64,000 nucleotides of DNA from Candidatus Binatia bacterium (GTDB lineage Bacteria; Desulfobacterota; Binatia; UBA12015): NCBI GenBank assembly GCA_029243485.1, contig JAQWRY010000086.1, positions 124,001 to 188,000 of the forward strand, given 5' to 3'. This document shows positions 47,166-58,162 of the stretch, piece after piece; within the stretch, counting starts at the first letter, position 1, and every line of letters starts with the position of its first letter. Both the position numbers and the translations under genes were made by a program. The notes beneath the pieces are model-generated. The model did no database searches. It had not been told where the DNA came from and worked only from the letters and a program-made list of their open reading frames with translations.

Positions 47166-47598
47166 CGGGCCACCCTAGCGAGACGGCGACGCCTGCAGCG
47201 ATCGCGGCCCCCAGCGTATCGAGAAGAACGTCCTGCACTGCGCTCGTTCGACTCGCGACGAACGCTTGGTGAAACTCGTCGGTCGCGGCGTACGACGCGC
47301 AGAGTGCGACGGCCCAAAGTCCGAGCTGCACGGGACTTCGCTCGTCGTCTGCCAGGGCCCGCAGCATGAGCAGCGACAGAATCGCGTACTCGGTCACATG
47401 CGCGAGCTTTCGAACCAATCCGTGTGCGAACTCGATCTGCTCCGCATCTGCCCACGGCAACAACAGTTCCAGAAGGGGGAAGAGGAACCGACTCGTTCCC
47501 GTGCCGCTGAAGCTGTCGGTCGAAAAGAGGAAGATCACCGAGGCCCAGACTGCGACCGGCCCCCAGCGCGACAGCGCGCTCGGCCTCGTGTGGGTCAG
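47137..47598 (-). CDS. VanZ-like membrane protein
   Basis: About 153 residues. VanZ-family spans are visible: RWGPVAVWASVIFLFSTDSFSGTG, RKLAHVTEYAILSLLMLRAL, LGLWAVALCASYAATDEFHQAFV and SAVQDVLLDTLGAAIAAGV; the KLAHVTEY and DEFHQ motifs are diagnostic. No ATG, GTG or TTG stands at the expected start. A CTG at 47598 overlaps the VKOR-DsbA stop as CTGA, and I assume it as a coupled start; a GTG inside the first span would truncate the protein. VanZ proteins are linked to teicoplanin resistance in Enterococcus, but function here is unknown. Confidence 0.72.
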   Translation of the reverse strand: MTHTRPSALSRWGPVAVWASVIFLFSTDSFSGTGTSRFLFPLLELLLPWADAEQIEFAHGLVRKLAHVTEYAILSLLMLRALADDERSPVQLGLWAVALCASYAATDEFHQAFVASRTSAVQDVLLDTLGAAIAAGVAVSLGWPVSSGRRSRA

Positions 47599-48845
47599 GG
47601 CGTCGCAGCCTGGGCGGCCTGGGCCGCAAGACGCTCCCGCTCGATCGCCAAGGCGTACCGGTACTGCTCGGGTCGGGAGAATCCACCCTTGATCCGACGC
47701 CCATTGATGAACAGGGTCGGCGTGGACTCGACGCCGGCGTCGAGACCGTCTCGAACGTCTTTCTTCACCGACGCCATGGCGTCGGGCGACGCGACGCACT
47801 TGTCGTAGGCGGCCATGTCAAGGCCCGCCTGCTGGGCGAAGGAACTCAAGTCGGCTGTCGCAAGGTCGTCCTGGTTCGTAAAGGCCAGGTAACTGAACGC
47901 GGCGTCCTTGCCCTGCCGGCTGGCACACTCGGAGGCCACAGCCACCTGGCACGCCACCACGTGGTTGCGGGATTCGATCGCGGGATTGCAGTCGGCATTC
48001 AGCGGGAAGTTCCGGTGAATCACACGCACGTCACCCGGACCCTCTGCGATCACGCTACTCAGGTCGAGAAAGGCTCGCCGGCAATAAGGACACTGGTAAT
48101 CCGAGAACTCCACGATCGTGATGGGAACCGGAGCCACCGAGGCATGTCGCTCGTCGATTGGAGGGTCCACGACGGGCTGAGAAATGTAGTACGCGTAGAA
48201 ACGGGGATCGTCCCTCTTGATCCCTTCGACCGTCACCGGCCCCGACGAGGAACCGCCCCCCTGAGCCACCGCAAGCAGGGCGATCCCGACAGCCGTGCCG
48301 GCAGCCGCAATGCCCAGGAAGCGTCCGGCCGCGAAACCGCTGCGGTCGCCCGTAGCGAGGATCCGGAAGAGGGCCAGCGCACCGCCGAACAGTGCGAGGC
48401 TCACGACATCCAACGAAAGGCACATCGGGCAGAACACCCCGATGGCGAACGTGGAGACTGCGAAGAAGTAGAGCGATACGGCGAGAATCGAGCCGGTCAA
48501 TGCCAGCAGCGCCGTCGCGGCGGGGAGTCGATCCTTGGCGGGCGACCGCATCACGTAAACGGAAACGGCGGCCGTGCCGAGATAGGCCAGGAGCGCCCAG
48601 GCGCCCACCGGGGCCCCGAGGAAATTCGCGTACGAACTCCCCAGAACCATGTCGCAGGACATCCCCTCGGAGATGTCGCAGAAACTGGTGTAGTCGCCCT
48701 GGCTTGCTGCCAGTTGTTGGTGGATATAGAGCACCACCGACCCGAGAATCATGCCCACGATCGAGAGGACCAAGGCAAGGGCGGGCAGGGCTCCGGTGGC
48801 TGGCGTCGCGGACGAGGAACTAGAGGTGCGACGGGCGTCTGACAT
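47595..48845 (-). CDS. VKOR-DsbA fusion: disulfide-bond-forming enzyme
   Basis: A 416-residue inner-membrane protein that joins a vitamin K epoxide reductase-like domain (residues about 20-195) to a DsbA-like thioredoxin domain (about 230-410). The VKOR part has loop cysteines C56 and C64 and the quinone-side CPMC at 139-142. The DsbA part has CPYC at 252-255 and a cis-Pro region STPTLFI. Such fusions oxidise periplasmic cysteines and pass electrons to quinone. The start ATG shares two bases with the ATG of the divergent glycosyltransferase. The stop overlaps the VanZ-like gene. Confidence 0.94.
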   Translation of the reverse strand: MSDARRTSSSSSATPATGALPALALVLSIVGMILGSVVLYIHQQLAASQGDYTSFCDISEGMSCDMVLGSSYANFLGAPVGAWALLAYLGTAAVSVYVMRSPAKDRLPAATALLALTGSILAVSLYFFAVSTFAIGVFCPMCLSLDVVSLALFGGALALFRILATGDRSGFAAGRFLGIAAAGTAVGIALLAVAQGGGSSSGPVTVEGIKRDDPRFYAYYISQPVVDPPIDERHASVAPVPITIVEFSDYQCPYCRRAFLDLSSVIAEGPGDVRVIHRNFPLNADCNPAIESRNHVVACQVAVASECASRQGKDAAFSYLAFTNQDDLATADLSSFAQQAGLDMAAYDKCVASPDAMASVKKDVRDGLDAGVESTPTLFINGRRIKGGFSRPEQYRYALAIERERLAAQAAQAATP

Positions 48846-51800
48846 GACCTGTGCCGATCGTAGCCACGCCCCAGCTGAGATTCAACGCATCCCCTCCGGG
48901 CGGCGCGGCCTGAGTCTGCTGCTGGTTGGAATCGTCCTTCTGGTGGCGGTGCCGCCGGCGAGCGCCCGAGACCTCATCGTCAACGGCGGATTGACCGCCG
49001 GGACCAACGACCAGCCCAATGCCTGGAAGCCGGATCTCTGGAGCCCCTCGAAGGGCACCGCGTTCGAGTGGAAGAAGGGCGAGGGCACGCCGGGCATCCT
49101 CGTCGTCCGGAATCTCCGCCCGAACGACTCTCGCTGGGTCCAGGACGTCGCCGTCGAGCCCAACCGCTGGTACCGGCTCTCGGGCTTCATCCGGGCCGTA
49201 GGGGTCTCGGAGGAGGGCGTCGGCGCCAACCTGGCGCTGATGCGCGGGTTCGACCACAGCGAGGCGCTGAAGGGGGACACCGAATGGACCCCCGTCGGGC
49301 TGTGGTTCAAGACCAAAGGCGAGAGGAGCGTAAAGGTTGCCTGCCGCCTCGGCGGCTTCGGCCAGATCTCGGCGGGAGAGGCCTGGTGCACGGGCATCCG
49401 TCTCGAGCAGCAGGCCGGGCCTCCGCTGAACGCCAACTACGTCTACGGCCCGATCGAGGAATCCACGGCGCCCGTCGGTTTCCCCACGGCGCTCGGACTC
49501 TTTCTGCTGCTGCTCTACGGAATCGGTCATCACGGACGCGTGGGCACCCACGCACCGCGCGGGGAGCGCATGCTCTTCGCCGGGATCCTCTTGGTCGTTC
49601 TCGCCGCGAAGATCGCCGCAGCCCCGCACTTCCAATACAAGGTCGACGTCGGGACGTACTCCGCCTGGGCGATGCGGCTCGCCACCGAGGGCCCCGCGCG
49701 CTTCTACGCGCCGAACTACTTCGCCGACTACCCGCCGGGCTACATGTACGTCCTGTGGGGTGTCGGCCTGCTCGCGAAGACGCTCGGCATCCCGTCCGGC
49801 TCGGACGGCTTCATCATCCTGCTGAAACTCCCGGCCCTGCTTACCGATGCCGCGGTCTCCTGGCTGCTGTACGCGCGTCTGCGCGGGACGGAGAAGAAGC
49901 TCGCGTGGAGCGCGGCTCTCGCGTTCACTCTGAACCCCGCACTTCTCTTTAACTCGGCGGTGTGGGGACAAACCGACTCGGTCCTCGCACTCCTCGTGCT
50001 CCTCGCGGTCCTCGCGCAGGGCGAGCGGCGCTTCGAACTCTCATGGATCTTCGCGGCGCTTGCCGTGCTCACGAAGCCCCAGGCCCTTCTCCTCGTCCCC
50101 CTGCTGCTCTTCTGGCCCCGAGGTTGGTGGAAGAGTGGCCGGCCGCTGTCCTGCCTCCTCGCCGTTCTCGCAGTGGTGTTCACGATCGCGGACCCATTCC
50201 GAGGAGATCGGCCATGGATGTGGCTCGTCGACCTCTACTTCGGGACGACAGGGTACTACGCAGAGACCTCGGTCAACGCGATGAACCTCGCGGCGCTCCT
50301 CTTCGGGATGCGCCACAACGACGCCGAGATCACACTCGGGATTTCCGCGAACAACTGGGGCTTAGGGATCGGCCTCCTGATCGGCCTCGGATTCTTCGTC
50401 GCGTACCTCTTGCGACGCGATCGCCTACTCTACATCAACCTCTTCGCGTCCGCGACGCTCGTTTCCTTCCTGTGCCTCACGCGGATGCACGAACGCTACC
50501 TCTACCCGTTCTTCGTCTTCGGAGCGCTGGTCGGCGTGACCGGATCGGTCGGCGTTCTGTACTGGAGCCTGTCGGCGCTTTTCCTTGCCAACGAGCTGAT
50601 CGTCTACCTGCACCAGCAGACCGCTACCGCCGGGCCGGACTGGCTCTGGCGAACGGTGGCGGCCTTGAACACGGCCTGCATGTTCGCGTGGCTCGGGGTC
50701 ACGTGGCAGATGGCCCGTGGTCGGCTCACGGCCCCCGGACTCACGGCACTCGAGCAGGACGATGCCGCCTGGCTCCGCTCGCTCTCGATGGACGGTCCGA
50801 CGAGTCCGATCAACGCACCATCCACGACGACCGAGAAGAAGGAGGGCATCCTCTCCCTTGCGTGGATCCGAGCTGAGTTGGTCTTCCTCCTCGGCCTCAC
50901 CGCCGTAGCCTTCGGGCTGCGAACTTACGCCATCGATCAGCCCATCGATCTCGTGTTCGATGAGGTCTACTTCGTCGAACAAGCGCGGAACTACTTGAAC
51001 GGGGTCGACTTCCTCGATCCGCATCCTCCGTTCGCCAAGCTCATGATCGGACTCGGCATCGGGACCGTAGGCGACACGCCGTTCGGCTGGCGCATCATGA
51101 ACGCGATCGTCGGAACGGTGCTCGTCGTGCTGATGTACATCTTGGCCCGGGAGCTCTTTCAGCGTCGCGTGGCCGCGGCCATGGCCGCCCTGTTCGTCAC
51201 CATCGACGGCCTCTGCATCGTGGATTCCCGGATCGCCGTCATCGACATCCACTACGTCACATGGGCCGTCGCCGCGTACATCCTGACGATCCGGTTGATT
51301 CGGCGGAAGCTGTACCAAGACGTTCCCCGCCTCCTCCTCATCGGGTTGGTGCTCGGGATCTCCGTCGGCTCCAAGCTTTACATCCCATTCTTCAGCTTCC
51401 TGTTGGTGCTCGGCGCGTTGACCGTCACGGGACGGAACGAGGCCCTACGACGCCAGGAGTCCGTGGTCCGCTTCCTCCTGAAGCCGGTCCTCATCGTGGG
51501 CTGGTTCGCCTTCGGCATCTACGTTCTGACCTACACACCCCACTACCTCTGGGGCTGGTGGCACTCCCCGATCGATCTCGTCAACTACATCTTGGTCGAA
51601 GTGCCGAACTACCAATCCGCCGTCGCCGACGCGGCGCACCCGTATTCGTCGAAGTGGTACACGTGGCCGCTTCTTCTCCGGCCTGTCTGGTATTTCTGGA
51701 AGGACCCGGGGCCGGCTCCCGGCATGGTCGTCGGGATCTGGGGCTCGGGAAATCCCGCCGTGTGGTGGGCCGCCGTACCGGCCTTGCTGTTCGCATCGTG

Positions 51801-52284
51801 GCACGCGGTCCGCGAGCGGCGCATGGCGCTCGGCTTCGTCGCCGCCGGCTGGCTCCTCCACCTCGCGCCGTGGGTCGGCATCGGCCGGACGCTCTTCCTG
51901 TACCACTACCTTCCCTCGCTCCTCTTCGCGTTCCTCGCGCTCGCGTGGCTTCTGGACCGGCTGTGGAACGGGGAGGGCTCGAAGGTCGAGCGCGGCCTCG
52001 CTGGCTCCGCCCTCCTCGCAAGTCTCTTCCCGGTCGTGACCGCGACCACCGGGACGCTCGGCACCATCGTCTTCCTCGCGCTGCTGGTGACCTACTACTT
52101 GTTGGTCAACTTAGGACGCGTCGACCCCATTCGGCTCGGTCGCGTCACCGTCGGTGTCTACTGCGTCGCGATTCTCGCGATTTCCTGGTACTTCCTGCCA
52201 ATCTGGCTCGGGATTCCCGTGACCAAGCAGGCCTGGCAGGCCCGCATGTGGATCTCGGGATCCGGCATCATGAATTGGATCTGA
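48844..52284 (+). CDS. Giant double glycosyltransferase: exported module + GT-C (ALG/PIG-M-like) + PMT-type O-mannosyltransferase
   Basis: A 1146-residue membrane protein. Signal/anchor about 20-41; exported beta-rich module about 42-200 (paired C167 and C182); membrane span near 205-225. First GT-C domain about 235-640 has periplasmic-loop D268 (KVDVGTYSAW) and D295-YPPGY, as in dolichol-type GPI/ALG transferases. A polar linker follows at ~640-690. The second GT-C domain is PMT/GT39: FDEVYF with D706-E707, H727-PPFAK and GWRIMNAIVGTVLV, about ten spans, which is the protein O-mannosyltransferase signature. Polyprenyl-phosphate-mannose would be the donor. Such a triple fusion is not one I recognise. 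Stop overlaps the next gene (TGATG). Confidence 0.85.
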   Translation: MTCADRSHAPAEIQRIPSGRRGLSLLLVGIVLLVAVPPASARDLIVNGGLTAGTNDQPNAWKPDLWSPSKGTAFEWKKGEGTPGILVVRNLRPNDSRWVQDVAVEPNRWYRLSGFIRAVGVSEEGVGANLALMRGFDHSEALKGDTEWTPVGLWFKTKGERSVKVACRLGGFGQISAGEAWCTGIRLEQQAGPPLNANYVYGPIEESTAPVGFPTALGLFLLLLYGIGHHGRVGTHAPRGERMLFAGILLVVLAAKIAAAPHFQYKVDVGTYSAWAMRLATEGPARFYAPNYFADYPPGYMYVLWGVGLLAKTLGIPSGSDGFIILLKLPALLTDAAVSWLLYARLRGTEKKLAWSAALAFTLNPALLFNSAVWGQTDSVLALLVLLAVLAQGERRFELSWIFAALAVLTKPQALLLVPLLLFWPRGWWKSGRPLSCLLAVLAVVFTIADPFRGDRPWMWLVDLYFGTTGYYAETSVNAMNLAALLFGMRHNDAEITLGISANNWGLGIGLLIGLGFFVAYLLRRDRLLYINLFASATLVSFLCLTRMHERYLYPFFVFGALVGVTGSVGVLYWSLSALFLANELIVYLHQQTATAGPDWLWRTVAALNTACMFAWLGVTWQMARGRLTAPGLTALEQDDAAWLRSLSMDGPTSPINAPSTTTEKKEGILSLAWIRAELVFLLGLTAVAFGLRTYAIDQPIDLVFDEVYFVEQARNYLNGVDFLDPHPPFAKLMIGLGIGTVGDTPFGWRIMNAIVGTVLVVLMYILARELFQRRVAAAMAALFVTIDGLCIVDSRIAVIDIHYVTWAVAAYILTIRLIRRKLYQDVPRLLLIGLVLGISVGSKLYIPFFSFLLVLGALTVTGRNEALRRQESVVRFLLKPVLIVGWFAFGIYVLTYTPHYLWGWWHSPIDLVNYILVEVPNYQSAVADAAHPYSSKWYTWPLLLRPVWYFWKDPGPAPGMVVGIWGSGNPAVWWAAVPALLFASWHAVRERRMALGFVAAGWLLHLAPWVGIGRTLFLYHYLPSLLFAFLALAWLLDRLWNGEGSKVERGLAGSALLASLFPVVTATTGTLGTIVFLALLVTYYLLVNLGRVDPIRLGRVTVGVYCVAILAISWYFLPIWLGIPVTKQAWQARMWISGSGIMNWI

Positions 52285-52976
52285 TGGGCATGCGAATCGC
52301 ACTCCTCATTGCCGCGGCGCTTCTCCTCACAGGACTGTGTGCAGGCTCCGCTCACGCCACGCGAGAGTTGGTCCGCAACCCGCTGCTCAGCCAGGGCAAG
52401 GACGGCAAGCCGCTCCACTGGAAACCCGAAGGCTACCGCATGGAGCCCACCGTCACGGTCTTCGGTTGGAACGTCGACGACTCGAAGATCGGCGTGATCG
52501 AAATCGAGAACAAGGTCGCTAACGATGCACGCTACGTGCAGTCCGTGCCGGTCTCGCCCGACACCTGGTACCACGTGAGCGGCTGGGGCCGGGCCGAAAA
52601 CGTCGGTGCGACGAGCATGGGGCTGTACCTCTCCGTCCTCGGGACGTTCCACAACTCGCGAGACCTTCGCGGCACACTCGGGTGGCAGCCTCTGAGTTTC
52701 TGGGTGAGGACCGGGGGCTTGGAGACGAAGTTGAAGATCTCGTGTCGACTCGGCGGCTACAGCTCGCTGAATACCGGCAAGGGATGGTGCACCGGGATCT
52801 CCGTCATGGCCGCCGGAAGTCCCGAGCCGAGCAGGTACGTGTACGGAAGCACAGCGGCCCAGCAGCTCAGCGGGGGCCCCTTCGGAATCCAGGCCATCGC
52901 GGTGCTCCTCGTGCTCGGTGCACTGCTGCTGATCTGGCGTTACGTGCTTCCACCGTCGAAGCAGATTCCCGAATGA
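52284..52976 (+). CDS. Membrane-anchored paralogue of the exported module of the glycosyltransferase
   Basis: A 230-residue protein: signal peptide (RIALLIAAALLLTGLCAGSAHA), exported beta-rich domain about 25-190, and C-terminal span (IQAIAVLLVLGALLLIWRYVL) with a short basic tail. The exported domain aligns with residues 42-200 of the upstream protein. Both begin R-(D/E)-L with N three residues on, share WY-x-(L/V)-SG, CRLGG, (A/G)WCTGI and YVYG, and keep two cysteines (C154, C169) the same 14 residues apart as C167/C182. The fold resembles a carbohydrate-binding jelly roll. It may present a glycan or hold the substrate. It overlaps both neighbours. Confidence 0.8.
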   Translation: MGMRIALLIAAALLLTGLCAGSAHATRELVRNPLLSQGKDGKPLHWKPEGYRMEPTVTVFGWNVDDSKIGVIEIENKVANDARYVQSVPVSPDTWYHVSGWGRAENVGATSMGLYLSVLGTFHNSRDLRGTLGWQPLSFWVRTGGLETKLKISCRLGGYSSLNTGKGWCTGISVMAAGSPEPSRYVYGSTAAQQLSGGPFGIQAIAVLLVLGALLLIWRYVLPPSKQIPE

Positions 52977-54544
52977 GACTTGCGACACTCGTCGTGCTCA
53001 CCTTGGTCGGGGGATGGCTTCGAATGTCGGCCCTCGACTTCGGCCTACCGGACAAGTTTCGTCCCGACGAAGAATACCTCGTCTCTCGCGCCACGGGCTT
53101 CCACCAGGACGCGAACCCACACTTCGCGGTGTACCCGGCCGCGCAGATGTACGTCCATCAAGGGGCACTTCGGCTCATCGCGTGGGCCGAAGGCCATCCG
53201 GGCGATTTCCGGGGCGCATTTCGCGACGACGGCTTCGCCCGTGTCCACCTCGTGGGACGTCAGCTCTCCGCCGGCTTCGGCACCGCGACGATCCCCGCCA
53301 TCTACTGGGCGACGCTTCCCGCCTACGGCGGGCCTGCGGCTCTCGCGAGCGCAGCCCTCATGACCTTCGCCACGATTCACGTCCGAGAATCCAAGTACTC
53401 GACGACAGACGCGCCCGCCGTCTTCTGGCTGACGCTTTCAATCGGGATGCTCCTACGGGTCGTCGGGCGGGGTCGGCGCCTGGATTCGCTCCTGGCGGGG
53501 GTCGCGACCGGGCTGGCAATGGGAACGAAGTACCCGACGGGAGCAATCCTCGCCGGTATGGCACTCGCCCATATTGGTGCACGGCACCGGGAAGGCCGCT
53601 CCCTCTGGCGCGTCTTGCGCGACATCCGTCCCTACATCACGCTGGTCACGGCGTTGATCGTGTTCGTCTGCGTGACCCCGTACCTTCTGCTCGACTGGGA
53701 GCAGACCCTGAAGGACTTCGCGTATCAGCGAGGGTTCATCGAGAACGGTGTGGGCAACACCTTCTCCGGATGGGGATGGTCCTGGTTCCTCACAAAGGCG
53801 ATGCCCGATGGAGTCGGCCCCATTCTGGCAGCGGCGCTCTTCGCGTCCGTACTCTGGGTGCTCGTCCGACCGCGCATCGGGACGTGGTCGTTGCTCGGCT
53901 TCCTGATCGTCGCGAGCGTCGGCATCACCTCGAGTCGCTACGCGTTCTACCGGTACATCCTCATCCCGCTGCCGGTCCTGATCGTGTTTCTCGGAATCGC
54001 GATCGGAGACGTACGCAAGCTCGTGGGACGACACCTGCCTCCTCGGTGGGCGACCGCCGCCGTGTCGGTTTGTGTGGCATTCCTGCTGGTCCCCGTCGGC
54101 ATCCGCGACTACAAGCTCAACCGGCTCCTCGCGCGGAGGGACACCCGTACGATGGCGCGCGAGTGGATTACCGAGAACATTCCGGAGGGCGCGGCAATCG
54201 CGATGACGCACCAGAGGACGCCCTACGGGAAACCTCAGCTGCACGGTAAGTACCGGACGAAACCCTTCGGGAGCCCACAGCTCTCGCGACGACAAGGCGT
54301 GCGGTGGGTCCTCTCCGATTCCGACGTCCTCCCGTTCTATTCGCCCGGACCGAATGAGGCGCAACTCGCGGCGCTCGACCGGGAAGCGACGCTCGTGTTC
54401 GACGCGAACCCGGTGAAACCGAATACTCCGGAGCCGATCTTCGACCAGGGTGACGCGTTCTACGTGCCGCTTCGACACGCCTCGAGTGTGAAGCGTCCTG
54501 GGCCGCGAATCCGTATCTGGGAGATTCGCCCCGCCGCAAAGTAG
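52973..54544 (+). CDS. GT-C glycosyltransferase (GT39/PMT_2-like), membrane
   Basis: A 523-residue polytopic transferase. The first span (LATLVVLTLVGGWLRMSAL) is followed by the catalytic-type acidic pair D32-E33 (KFRPDEEYLVSR). Later features are YPAAQMYVHQGALRLI, a run of about ten spans, and a ~120-residue periplasmic C-terminal domain (ENIPEGAAIAMTHQRTPYGKP...). It belongs to the ArnT/PMT_2 group that uses polyprenyl-phosphate sugars. The ATG overlaps the anchored-module stop (ATGA), so the three genes are translated together. It converges tail-to-tail with the next gene, one base apart. Confidence 0.83.
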   Translation: MRLATLVVLTLVGGWLRMSALDFGLPDKFRPDEEYLVSRATGFHQDANPHFAVYPAAQMYVHQGALRLIAWAEGHPGDFRGAFRDDGFARVHLVGRQLSAGFGTATIPAIYWATLPAYGGPAALASAALMTFATIHVRESKYSTTDAPAVFWLTLSIGMLLRVVGRGRRLDSLLAGVATGLAMGTKYPTGAILAGMALAHIGARHREGRSLWRVLRDIRPYITLVTALIVFVCVTPYLLLDWEQTLKDFAYQRGFIENGVGNTFSGWGWSWFLTKAMPDGVGPILAAALFASVLWVLVRPRIGTWSLLGFLIVASVGITSSRYAFYRYILIPLPVLIVFLGIAIGDVRKLVGRHLPPRWATAAVSVCVAFLLVPVGIRDYKLNRLLARRDTRTMAREWITENIPEGAAIAMTHQRTPYGKPQLHGKYRTKPFGSPQLSRRQGVRWVLSDSDVLPFYSPGPNEAQLAALDREATLVFDANPVKPNTPEPIFDQGDAFYVPLRHASSVKRPGPRIRIWEIRPAAK

Positions 54545-55768: not shown

Positions 55769-58162
55769 TCACCGGCGGCTGACTCCGACCCGACCACCGC
55801 CGGAACTCCCACCACGCGATCCACCACTGAAACTACGGCTTCCACCCAAACTGGAGCGGCCACCGCTTCGCGCGGTCGAACGGCCCGGCCCCGATGCCGA
55901 GCGACCGCTGGACGAGAACGACGACCGCGAGCCACTCGACACGGCGCGCCTGTTGCCCCCGGAGGATCCCCGAGATTGCGTTGTGGAGGCCCCCCGGGGG
56001 GGCCTCCGACCGGAGCTCGCGACGCGCGGCGGGGGCGCGGGCCGGGTCGCGCGAGCGGACGAACCCGACCGGGTCACGCGGGGAGACGTCGCCTTGCGGC
56101 TCACACGGGCAGGCGAGGCGGACCGACTCACACGGGGAGACACCGACGGCCGCGTTCCCGCACGACCCACAGTATTCGTCCGGGCTCCAGAGCGACCGGC
56201 ACTGGCGCGTGGCTTCGAGGCCCTCGCCCGTGTCACGGCCTCACGCCCCCCGCCCGACTGGCGTCGGGAAACCGGGGGCCGGCCGATCCCCGAACGTGCT
56301 GAGGATGCTCTCGTGGCCCCGGCGCCACTCACCGCCGCGCGCTCGGGTCCGCGGGAGGCACCACGCGACCGGCGCGCGCGGGAAGCGCCGACCGGATTAC
56401 GCTCCGAGCTTTCCGGAGAGAACGCCGGCCGGCTCGCGACGTAGGGCTCGCTCCGACGGGCAAACCGGCGCGGCGCCGATGGCGGGGCCGCTCGGGCCGC
56501 TCGGGTCGTGCGGGCCGGCGGACGCGGCGCGACGCTTGCGCGACCGCCGGCCCGCGTATCCACGCGTGCAGTCGGTGCGCGAGAACGGGAGGGGCGAGAG
56601 GACGTCGCCGCAGAACGCACCGATGAGCGACCGGTCTGTCCGCGCGCCGCGAGCTGCGCGCGTTCGTCTTGGCTGCCACTCCGGGTTCGACTCGCGTTCC
56701 GCTGCACCCGCGGGGTGCCCCGTGCGCCAGATGACCCCGTGAGTCCCGCGCGCCTCACGCCGGAGCGTTCGCGGCCACTGGGCGGCCTCGCCCCACGCCC
56801 CACGGCTTCTCTCGAGGGCTGGACGGCACGTCGGCTCGATCGGTCCGGCGTCACGCCGACCCGACCGCTCACCGCACGAAGACCCCGGCGATCGCGTTCG
56901 CCAAGAGGAGCCCTGCGACCACCGCGGCCGAATCCTCCACGCTCCGTTCCCGTGAAGCCACCGGGGTGATGACGATTCACGTGACGAACGTCCTTCACGC
57001 GGACGTTGTAGATATTTTTTTGCTTGATAATGACGTTATTGACGACCCGCGGCCCGCCCCATCCACCCCACCAGGCAGAACCGACGCGGACCCCCCCGAA
57101 GCCTCCCCACCACGGGTAACAGGGCTCACCCCAACCGAGGGGGACCCAGCCGACGTAGCCGGCGCCGATCCCCACGGACACGGACGCGCCGTAGCCGTAC
57201 CCGCCGCCGTAGCCGTAGAAGGCGACGAGAGCTGGCGAGTACGCCGGGCGCGCGATCACGGTCCCCGGGGCCCAATACCAGTAGCTGTTCTGCCGTACCC
57301 AGCGACCGTAGTGGAACGGCGCCCAGCCCCACGCGGCGTAATCCATCCACGTCCATCCCCACGGCTCCACAAAGACCCAGCGCCCATCACGATACGGCGC
57401 CCAACCCGCACTCACGTTGGTGGGGCGCCACATCTGACCGTAGCCACGCTGGTACTCCCAAACCCCGTTCTCATCGAGGTCCTCTACGCCGTAGATGTCC
57501 GCGCTGACATGCTGGTAGCTCTGGGACGCGTCGACGCGGTCGTCGCGCGAACGTTCCCACCTGTCGAAGTCGTCTTCCGCGGCATTCGCGATCGGGCGGT
57601 AGCGTGCCGGACCGTCCGATGCGCCGACGACCGCGCTCGCGTGAGCGAACAACTCGAAGCGGTCATCGCCCACGTGAGCGATCGCCTCACCACGTCCGAC
57701 GCGAACCGTCGTGCGTCCGTCGGCCTCGACGTCGACCCGATAGCTCCCCGCGCGCTTCAAGACGATGGCGGCGCCCGGCGTATCGATCTCGACGTGTCTC
57801 TGGTTCGGGTCGCTTCGCAGACGGACGATGACGCGCCCCACGCGAACACCCACTTGCGTGGCATCCGCGGCCACCTCCAACAGATCGAGCTGGGTGTCGG
57901 CGCCAAGGCGCGCGTACGTGCCCGGAGCCAACTGAATCTCGGCGCGCGCGCCCGCCCCCGAATAAAAGGCGTCCCCGGTGACGAGTGGTGCGTTCACGGC
58001 GACGCCGGTCCAATCCTCGCCATCGTGGAGTCGGTACGACGCGGGGCCATCGATCAGGCTGATACGGGCGACCCCTGGGGGATCATCGGCGGCCACGGCC
58101 AATGAGGGCGAAAAAAGCGTGAGCGCGAAGGCTGCGAGCAATCCGATCTTTCGACAAGCCAA
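55769..58162 (-). CDS. FecR-domain / tryptophan-rich (DUF6600-like) exported protein with long Arg/Ser/Gly tail
   Basis: A 797-residue exported protein from TTG 58162; AGGGAGG at 58170-58176 lies seven bases upstream and fixes this start. The signal peptide is cut near AVAADD. A FecR-like domain (about 45-160) is followed by aromatic repeats (WAPYRDGRWVFVEPWGW, WMDYAAWGWAPFHYGRW) and a Gly/Tyr/Trp-rich segment (to ~385). The last ~390 residues are almost only Arg, Ser, Gly, Ala and Pro, highly basic and disordered. FecR domains usually sit in periplasmic sensors; here there is no membrane span after the signal. The tail may bind nucleic acid, polyanionic glycan or LPS. Confidence 0.78.
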   Translation of the reverse strand: MACRKIGLLAAFALTLFSPSLAVAADDPPGVARISLIDGPASYRLHDGEDWTGVAVNAPLVTGDAFYSGAGARAEIQLAPGTYARLGADTQLDLLEVAADATQVGVRVGRVIVRLRSDPNQRHVEIDTPGAAIVLKRAGSYRVDVEADGRTTVRVGRGEAIAHVGDDRFELFAHASAVVGASDGPARYRPIANAAEDDFDRWERSRDDRVDASQSYQHVSADIYGVEDLDENGVWEYQRGYGQMWRPTNVSAGWAPYRDGRWVFVEPWGWTWMDYAAWGWAPFHYGRWVRQNSYWYWAPGTVIARPAYSPALVAFYGYGGGYGYGASVSVGIGAGYVGWVPLGWGEPCYPWWGGFGGVRVGSAWWGGWGGPRVVNNVIIKQKNIYNVRVKDVRHVNRHHPGGFTGTERGGFGRGGRRAPLGERDRRGLRAVSGRVGVTPDRSSRRAVQPSREAVGRGARPPSGRERSGVRRAGLTGSSGARGTPRVQRNASRTRSGSQDERAQLAARGQTGRSSVRSAATSSRPSRSRAPTARVDTRAGGRASVAPRPPARTTRAARAAPPSAPRRFARRSEPYVASRPAFSPESSERNPVGASRARRSRGASRGPERAAVSGAGATRASSARSGIGRPPVSRRQSGGGREAVTRARASKPRASAGRSGARTNTVGRAGTRPSVSPRVSRSASPARVSRKATSPRVTRSGSSARATRPAPPPRVASSGRRPPRGASTTQSRGSSGGNRRAVSSGSRSSFSSSGRSASGPGRSTARSGGRSSLGGSRSFSGGSRGGSSGGGRVGVSRR

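Follow-up and report, generated by a model that had tools for sequence, protein, structure and literature searches.

The window analyzed here, a 64,000-nucleotide stretch of the genome of a Candidatus Binatia bacterium (positions 124,001 to 188,000 of contig JAQWRY010000086.1; genome of 6.55 Mb in 88 contigs, 97.5% complete), carries on its forward strand three overlapping genes that may form an extracytoplasmic glycosylation system, the first of which joins two glycosyltransferases of the GT-C kind in a single chain. Gene 1 (48844..52284), as defined by its open reading frame, Pfam and a profile search, encodes a fusion of 1146 amino acids (1146 codons plus stop) comprising a module resembling a carbohydrate-binding module (CBM), a GT87 domain, and a PMT domain. 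Gene 2 (52284..52976, 230 amino acids) encodes a second CBM-like module with an N-terminal helix and a C-terminal membrane helix, as judged from its reading frame and a structure model, and gene 3 (52973..54544, 523 amino acids) encodes a PMT/PMT_2-type GT-C protein. Genes 1 and 2 overlap by one base (TGATG) and genes 2 and 3 by four (ATGA), as a preliminary description of this DNA had it; its further claim that the overlaps impose translation in fixed proportion goes too far, since they suggest translational coupling at most. An alternative in-frame start of gene 1 lies at 48751, and the start of gene 2 is uncertain, with further in-frame starts at 52275 and 52290. The closest relatives bearing names are metagenome-assembled genomes filed as "Deltaproteobacteria bacterium" or plain "bacterium".

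Gene 1 begins with a hydrophobic segment (residues 24–37, 48913..48954; a signal peptide or anchor by alignment-averaged hydropathy), followed by the CBM-like module (about residues 43–205, 48970..49458), which was delimited by homology to gene 2. A second hydrophobic segment (residues 214–227, 49483..49524; hydropathy) separates the module from the GT87 GT-C domain (residues 238–626, 49555..50721; Pfam and alignment), in which lie D268, D295-YPPGY, WGQTD374-378, KPQ411-413, and HERY549-552. A poorly conserved linker (residues 627–672, 50722..50859) then leads into the PMT domain (residues 673–1146, 50860..52281; Pfam and alignment), which includes a PMT_4TMC region and carries D706-E707, HPPFAK727-732, D801, R1015, and F1018.

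The joining of the GT87 and PMT halves is conserved. We built a profile from 14 fusion proteins and searched it in 148 genomes of the class, taking counts from the resulting listing; in what follows, f1 denotes the window's own family, f6 and f9 two other families of the class, and G and L numbers are genome and locus labels. Matches that span both halves within a single, uninterrupted open frame were found in 57 of the 148 genomes, all from these three families (13/14 in f1, 5/6 in f6, and 39/41 in f9). In three further genomes (G012, G018, and G085), the match was interrupted by contig ends, and one (G088) gave a match to the module only, while the best match to the fusion profile in the other families of the class (87 genomes) had an E value of 3e-15. 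The preliminary description had named a stop near residues 640–690 in relatives as the sign of a frame error; no such stop was seen, and its proposal of two GT-C catalytic units in one chain is borne out. In comparisons with three relatives of the same genus, the CBM, GT87, and PMT domains, gene 2, and gene 3 all showed a nonsynonymous divergence (dN) of 0.08–0.25 against a synonymous divergence (dS) of 0.79–1.30, and dN reached 0.29–0.71 in the 46-residue linker; purifying selection thus acts on every domain part, with the linker loosely constrained. The motifs of the preliminary description, namely D268, D295-YPP, FDEVYF (D706-E707), and HPPFAK, are present, and within them D268, D295, Y296, P297, P298, F705, D706, E707, H727, P728, P729, A731, and K732 are invariant in the 14 aligned fusion proteins. 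A contig search with short exact peptides returned three close relatives and one cyanobacterium (residues 682–1138 only, 23%). Given that GT-C enzymes are common in the window's own genome (43 PMT_2 matches, 38 of them above cut-off), it is the fusion itself that stands out.

The second half is a full PMT-type transferase, as first proposed, with Pfam matches to PMT (PF02366, residues 685–900; 77.1 bits, cut-off 22.7) and PMT_4TMC (PF16192, residues 924–1138; 86.2 bits, cut-off 32.4). In an alignment to yeast Pmt1, D706, D801, R1015, and F1018 fall on D77, D189, R649, and F652, and these four positions, which belong to the first, second, and fifth loops, are invariant in the 14 fusion proteins. 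The yeast residues correspond to D74, D176, R441, and Y444 of MtPMT, where replacement by alanine leaves little or no activity, the Y444F variant retaining about half of it, according to the sections of the report available (PMC12331936). On this alignment, the PMT half carries the catalytic set of protein O-mannosyltransferases, and family membership places the GT-C enzymes of the locus among those of the extracytoplasmic kind.

The first half had been described as ALG/PIG-M-like, an assignment that we replace, the Pfam match being instead to GT87 (PF09594, residues 296–544; 33.6 bits, cut-off 25). Invariant residues in this half, across the 14 proteins, are D268, D295, Y296-P298, Y300, Y302, W374, D378, K411-Q413, E474, N478, R547, and H549-Y552; G375 and Q376 are nearly invariant, and position 272 is tyrosine in 24 of 27 rows and phenylalanine in three. 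We compared this half with the GT87 enzyme PimE, for which D58, Y62, Y92, Q163, K195, and H322 are reported as needed and W319 as also essential, as far as the source was available (PMC12041525). By a comparison of spacing, made without an alignment, D268, Y272, Y302, Q376, K411, and H549 may match these six residues in order, with offsets from the first aspartate of +4, +34, +105, +137, and +264 in PimE (Y62, Y92, Q163, K195, and H322) and +4, +34, +108, +143, and +281 in the GT87 half (Y272, Y302, Q376, K411, and H549).

The module at the N-terminus of gene 1 and that of gene 2 share 36% identity, and gene 2, with its C-terminal membrane helix, is indeed an anchored copy of the module, as the preliminary description held. 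An AlphaFold2 model of gene 2 built on eight sequences had a mean predicted local distance difference test score (pLDDT) of 77, with about 90 in the core, and a Foldseek search of the PDB with this model returned CBMs in all of the first 13 rows and 23 CBMs among the 50 best rows, the top ones being a hyaluronan-binding module, CBM4-2, CBM16, and CBM61. Other rows with the same fold included phage tailspikes, insecticidal proteins, cyclases, and other carbohydrate-active proteins. The best VIA-align comparison, to the first of these rows, gave Z 17.2 with a root mean square deviation of 2.6 over 145 aligned residues, and many others gave Z of about 12–14. The beta-rich module is thus predicted to adopt a CBM4/16/22/61-like beta-sandwich fold, in gene 1 by homology to the gene 2 model. 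Gene 2 was not assigned to a named CBM sequence family, since none of its Pfam matches exceeded the cut-off and NCBIfam gave no match, and we therefore call the module CBM-like; a shared CBM fold is no proof of sugar binding, and a glycan ligand for the module is presumptive. Crude hydropathy places a hydrophobic segment on each side of the module, followed by the first GT87 helix, which suggests that D268 lies on the same side of the membrane as the module. The position of the module in relation to the enzyme varies among families: in f1 and f6 it forms the N-terminus of the fusion, and in f9 a GT87-PMT protein is accompanied by a separate module gene just downstream (10/10 loci dissected). 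The window's genome also encodes a paralogue in which module, GT87, and module follow one another in one frame with no PMT (L033:8068-10650), and f9 likewise has CBM-GT87 proteins lacking PMT (L080 among them).

Gene 3 matches Pfam PMT and PMT_2, as expected of the second PMT_2-like GT-C protein that it had been taken for, and all 13 aligned homologues keep its D32-E33 pair. In four f9 loci, a different membrane-type protein follows the fusion and module (L047:12254-14266, with similar genes in L054-L056); in L047 this protein gave a match below cut-off to the LA_3751/3752 glycosyltransferase family, as well as one to a PA14 domain at its C-terminus. We considered this f9 gene as a relative of gene 3 and rejected it, BLASTP giving no meaningful similarity (E 0.46).

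Elsewhere in the phylum, these parts are found combined in other ways. In a sample of 395 genomes, the profile gave 11 matches at E 1e-30, nine inside the class and two outside (G421 and G477). GT87 and PMT are encoded by neighboring genes in 8 of 146 sampled genomes of the class of G477 and in 1 of 12 in the class of G421 (G421 itself), and we fetched these nine split loci (L077 and L086-L093) together with the G477 locus (L078). The GT87 gene adjoins the PMT gene in all nine, and the module is fused to PMT in five (L077, L087, L088, L089, and L092); in the remaining four, the PMT N-terminus gave no module match. In L078, from a distant class, CBM, GT87, and PMT lie in one frame again, with weak scores of 60, 74, and 120 bits, and by Pfam the PMT part alone is detected. 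A GT2 gene stands beside PMT in the seven split loci with genes listed; all five split-locus proteins tested matched PF00535 (GT2) and all four genes tested matched PF04138 (GtrA), with no GtrA seen among the genes listed for L077. Four of the GT2 proteins had PgfS as their best model, below its cut-off (295-296 bits, cut-off 500), and a next-best model that we take to be of the ArnC type. GT2 and GtrA are the equipment for polyprenyl-phosphate sugars in GtrA/GtrB systems, as outlined in the available part of PMC11127046.

The split loci also hold a candidate acceptor. Each of the nine encodes a small protein with one CxxCH motif, a signal-like N-terminus (judged by eye), and a Thr/Pro-rich linker; eight loci have a long, regular Thr/Pro stretch, L093 a shorter and more irregular one, and the cytochrome-like gene of L088 fell below the threshold of the first scan. 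Of four such CxxCH proteins scanned, two scored above the Pfam cytochrome cut-off and two below. In f6, a Thr-Pro-rich gene with a lipoprotein-like start adjoins the fusion in 4/4 loci scanned (L050-L053), and the one such gene that was scanned matched no Pfam family; additional Thr-Pro-rich genes lie nearby in L050, L052, and L053. Such acceptors would agree with the Thr/Pro-rich linkers in which actinobacterial PMT sites lie (PMC12757957, in the part available) and with the preference for proline-rich acceptors noted in the accessible part of PMC12331936.

We also counted exact matches to a 24-base Thr-Pro pattern, with the reversed pattern as a control, bearing in mind that overlapping matches inflate the counts. 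In the seven split-pair genomes with any match, 36 of 41 matches fell in the split locus, against 0.16 expected from an even spread; the matches overlap, so that these 36 amount to 6 tracts out of at most 11 in all. G603 had a single match, outside the locus, G591 and G640 had none, and in the class of G477 a match was found in 6/8 split-pair genomes. The 79 matches in the window's own genome are spread over 12 sites (L128-L139), a single tract (L136) accounting for 39, and another f1 genome, G008, has 142; the reversed control gave 0 in the former, 8 in the latter, and up to 34 in others. Across the class, the median count was 7.5 in the 60 fusion genomes (the 57 and the three cut by contig ends) and 0 in the 88 others (rank test, P 5e-12), the genomes not being independent. 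Thr-Pro tracts as a plain marker of the fusion were rejected, since families f7, f11, f13, and f15 have tracts and no fusion, the genomes are related, and overlapping matches inflate the counts; for these reasons, we take the neighborhood, rather than the genome count, as the argument.

Among the neighbors of the three genes, a divergently transcribed VKOR-DsbA fusion (47595..48845, reverse strand), expected to act in disulfide bond formation, is conserved and may have a role in the system. The start of this gene shares two bases with the start of gene 1, and the gene is kept in 12/13 f1 loci and lies at most five genes away in 4/5 f6 loci. A link between this gene and a cysteine pair in the module was considered and rejected, as the pair is present in most f1 copies and in no f6 fusion module, though f6 has VKOR-DsbA nearby. 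Further along the window, on the reverse strand, an open frame of 797 residues (55769-58162) opens with a signal-like stretch and carries a very long tail rich in Arg, Ser, and Gly.

We consider the best explanation to be protein O-glycosylation by a one-chain inner-membrane enzyme, with both steps on the same glycan, and put its probability at roughly 0.56. The computation shows the fusion and its conservation, the domain identities, the PMT catalytic residues, the predicted CBM fold, the shuffling of the parts, and the neighborhood links; the sugar, order of steps, acceptor, and module ligand in this proposal are inferred. The C-terminal PMT half would take a sugar, most likely mannose, off a polyprenyl-phosphate carrier and attach it to Thr/Ser residues of exported proteins, acting on the protein as it emerges from export and favoring Thr-Pro-rich stretches. 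The GT87 half would next extend this glycan by one sugar or more, drawing on a carrier of the same type, as happens with PimE on mycobacterial mannoproteins, and the N-terminal CBM-like module, facing the periplasm, could keep the new glycan or the acceptor near. A further module, anchored in the membrane, would come from gene 2, and gene 3 would contribute another GT-C enzyme, the third, for an additional sugar. Since the first half belongs to GT87, the family of PimE, the pair fits the mycobacterial initiator and extender, in which PMT starts protein O-mannosylation and PimE extends it, as described in the portion of PMC12757957 available. More tentatively, and at somewhat under even odds, the one enzyme may start and extend the O-glycan with its own CBM passing the product between the active sites, and the split relatives may place glycans on Thr-Pro linkers in c-type cytochromes outside the cell.

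Several results weigh against this explanation. The PMT half scores 78.4 bits against the NCBIfam equivalog PrMnsylTfPmt (NF058602), short of its cut-off of 800, and is thus not assigned to that family. In the GT87 half, there is no tryptophan at the distance from H549 that would match PimE W319, three residues before H322 (T546 stands there), and this half has no sequence match to any PDB chain even at E 10; a full-length model of the fusion from a four-row alignment (pLDDT 34, predicted template modeling score 0.25) was uninformative on the fold. With regard to the supply of carrier sugar, the window's genome gave no match to GtrA (PF04138) at E 0.001, and no gene for a carrier-sugar synthase or flippase accompanies the window's locus; five GT2 matches lie elsewhere in the genome at no more than 34% identity, the best of them with an in-frame stop. 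As to the acceptor, the 12 sites in the window's genome divide into five frames with a hydrophobic start (by script), three that look extracellular by eye, and four that do not look secreted. Thr-Pro tracts also occur in 38 of 88 fusion-free genomes of the class and in 24 of 138 genomes of the class of G477 that lack the split pair (G477, with none, is counted among the 138), and in G533 the reversed control (6) exceeds the real matches (3).

The main rival, which we judge unlikely, is that gene 1 is a surface polysaccharide or glycolipid enzyme whose GT-C halves build an envelope glycan bound by the CBM, in the manner of EmbC, AftD, and Citrobacter youngae ORF12. EmbA/B/C, AftD, and Citrobacter ORF12 have one GT-C core each. 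They resemble gene 1 in joining a GT-C core to an extracytoplasmic CBM and differ in their polysaccharide acceptors, and the CBMs described on GT-C enzymes bind the acceptor polysaccharide, a further point against protein O-glycosylation, as set out in the portion of PMC11127046 available. This rival draws its strength from the presence of the CBM and from scans of 12 f1 loci (the window included) and six f9 loci, in which no candidate acceptor was seen, no Thr-Pro-rich gene near the fusion being above threshold. It is also favored by a weak match of the GT87 half to an NCBIfam "cell surface glycopolymer" family (22.9 bits, cut-off 150) and by the action of PimE on a glycolipid as well, reported in the available part of PMC12041525. 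Against it, the PMT half retains PMT_4TMC along with the aligned catalytic set of protein O-mannosyltransferases, a Thr/Pro-rich CxxCH protein is encoded in all nine split loci, and a Thr-Pro-rich lipoprotein-like gene lies beside the fusion in the four f6 loci scanned.

Somewhat less probable still is that two independent enzymes share one chain, with PMT acting on proteins and GT87 on another acceptor, the fusion serving proximity or equal amounts. The paralogue with two modules and the CBM-GT87 proteins of f9 show that GT87 can act apart from PMT, since they lack PMT altogether; against this, GT87 and PMT are neighbors in every split locus and form one chain in L078, and enzymes of these two families are known to start and extend mannoproteins (PMC12757957, in the part available). 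That the fusion is an artefact, through frame error, misassembly, or chance joining of two genes, is suggested only by the draft state of the genome and is very improbable, contradicted as it is by the open frame kept in 57 genomes and by dN values that stay well under dS in each of the three domains.

Among the closest known systems, the mycobacterial PMT (Rv1002c, GT39) and PimE (GT87) share with the fusion the enzyme families and, on the reading proposed here, the division into initiation and extension, the polyprenyl-phosphate donor, and the extracytoplasmic location, but they are separate enzymes and the sections available mention no CBM, in contrast to the single chain with a CBM-like module found here (PMC12757957, PMC12041525, and PMC12331936). 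In the Pgf system of Streptococcus mutans (PgfS, PgfM1, PgfE, and PgfM2), surface proteins are modified by a GT-A enzyme together with a PMT_2-type membrane protein, PgfM1, and a second, similar one, PgfM2; this organism is Gram-positive, and the available portion of the source mentions no such fusion, CBM, or GT87 enzyme (PMC5856776). The split loci resemble three-component GtrA/GtrB/Gtr systems in having GT2 and GtrA beside GT-C enzymes but contain two GT-C enzymes rather than one, and the window's genome has no detected GtrA. As for the candidate acceptor, the PgcA-type cytochromes of Geobacter, with TPTx repeats, are secreted and resemble it in their Thr-Pro repeats, but PgcA of Geobacter sulfurreducens has three hemes compared with one CxxCH per split-locus protein; the PgcA repeats have been proposed to bind metal oxides, and in the main text of that report the term "glycosyl" does not occur (PMC5732950). 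The report on the Geobacter metallireducens genome makes no mention of mannosyltransferase, glycosylation, or GtrA (PMC2700814), and searches of open-licence PMC papers, judged from titles and abstract starts, listed none on a PMT-GT87 fusion or on glycosylated Thr-Pro cytochromes.

Bacterial protein O-mannosylation seems so far restricted to Actinomycetota according to the part of PMC12331936 available. A GT39 enzyme of Caldicellulosiruptor bescii is nevertheless required for protein glycosylation, and nearly 4000 other bacterial species have a GT39 PMT (PMC12757957, in the part available), which means that a PMT beyond Actinomycetota is by itself no novelty. The preliminary description spoke of a probable new system, which is too strong: the enzyme families and the two-step logic were known before, and it is their fused, CBM-bearing form that is new, searches of the open-licence literature having listed no paper on such a system. 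What would be new is an initiator and its likely extender joined as one conserved chain in 57 of the 148 class genomes, and this fusion offers a natural test of coupling between the initiation and extension steps. The split clusters, in turn, offer a concrete candidate acceptor in the small CxxCH protein with its Thr/Pro-rich linker, and if glycosylation of such linkers is true, it would tie protein O-glycosylation to extracellular electron transfer.

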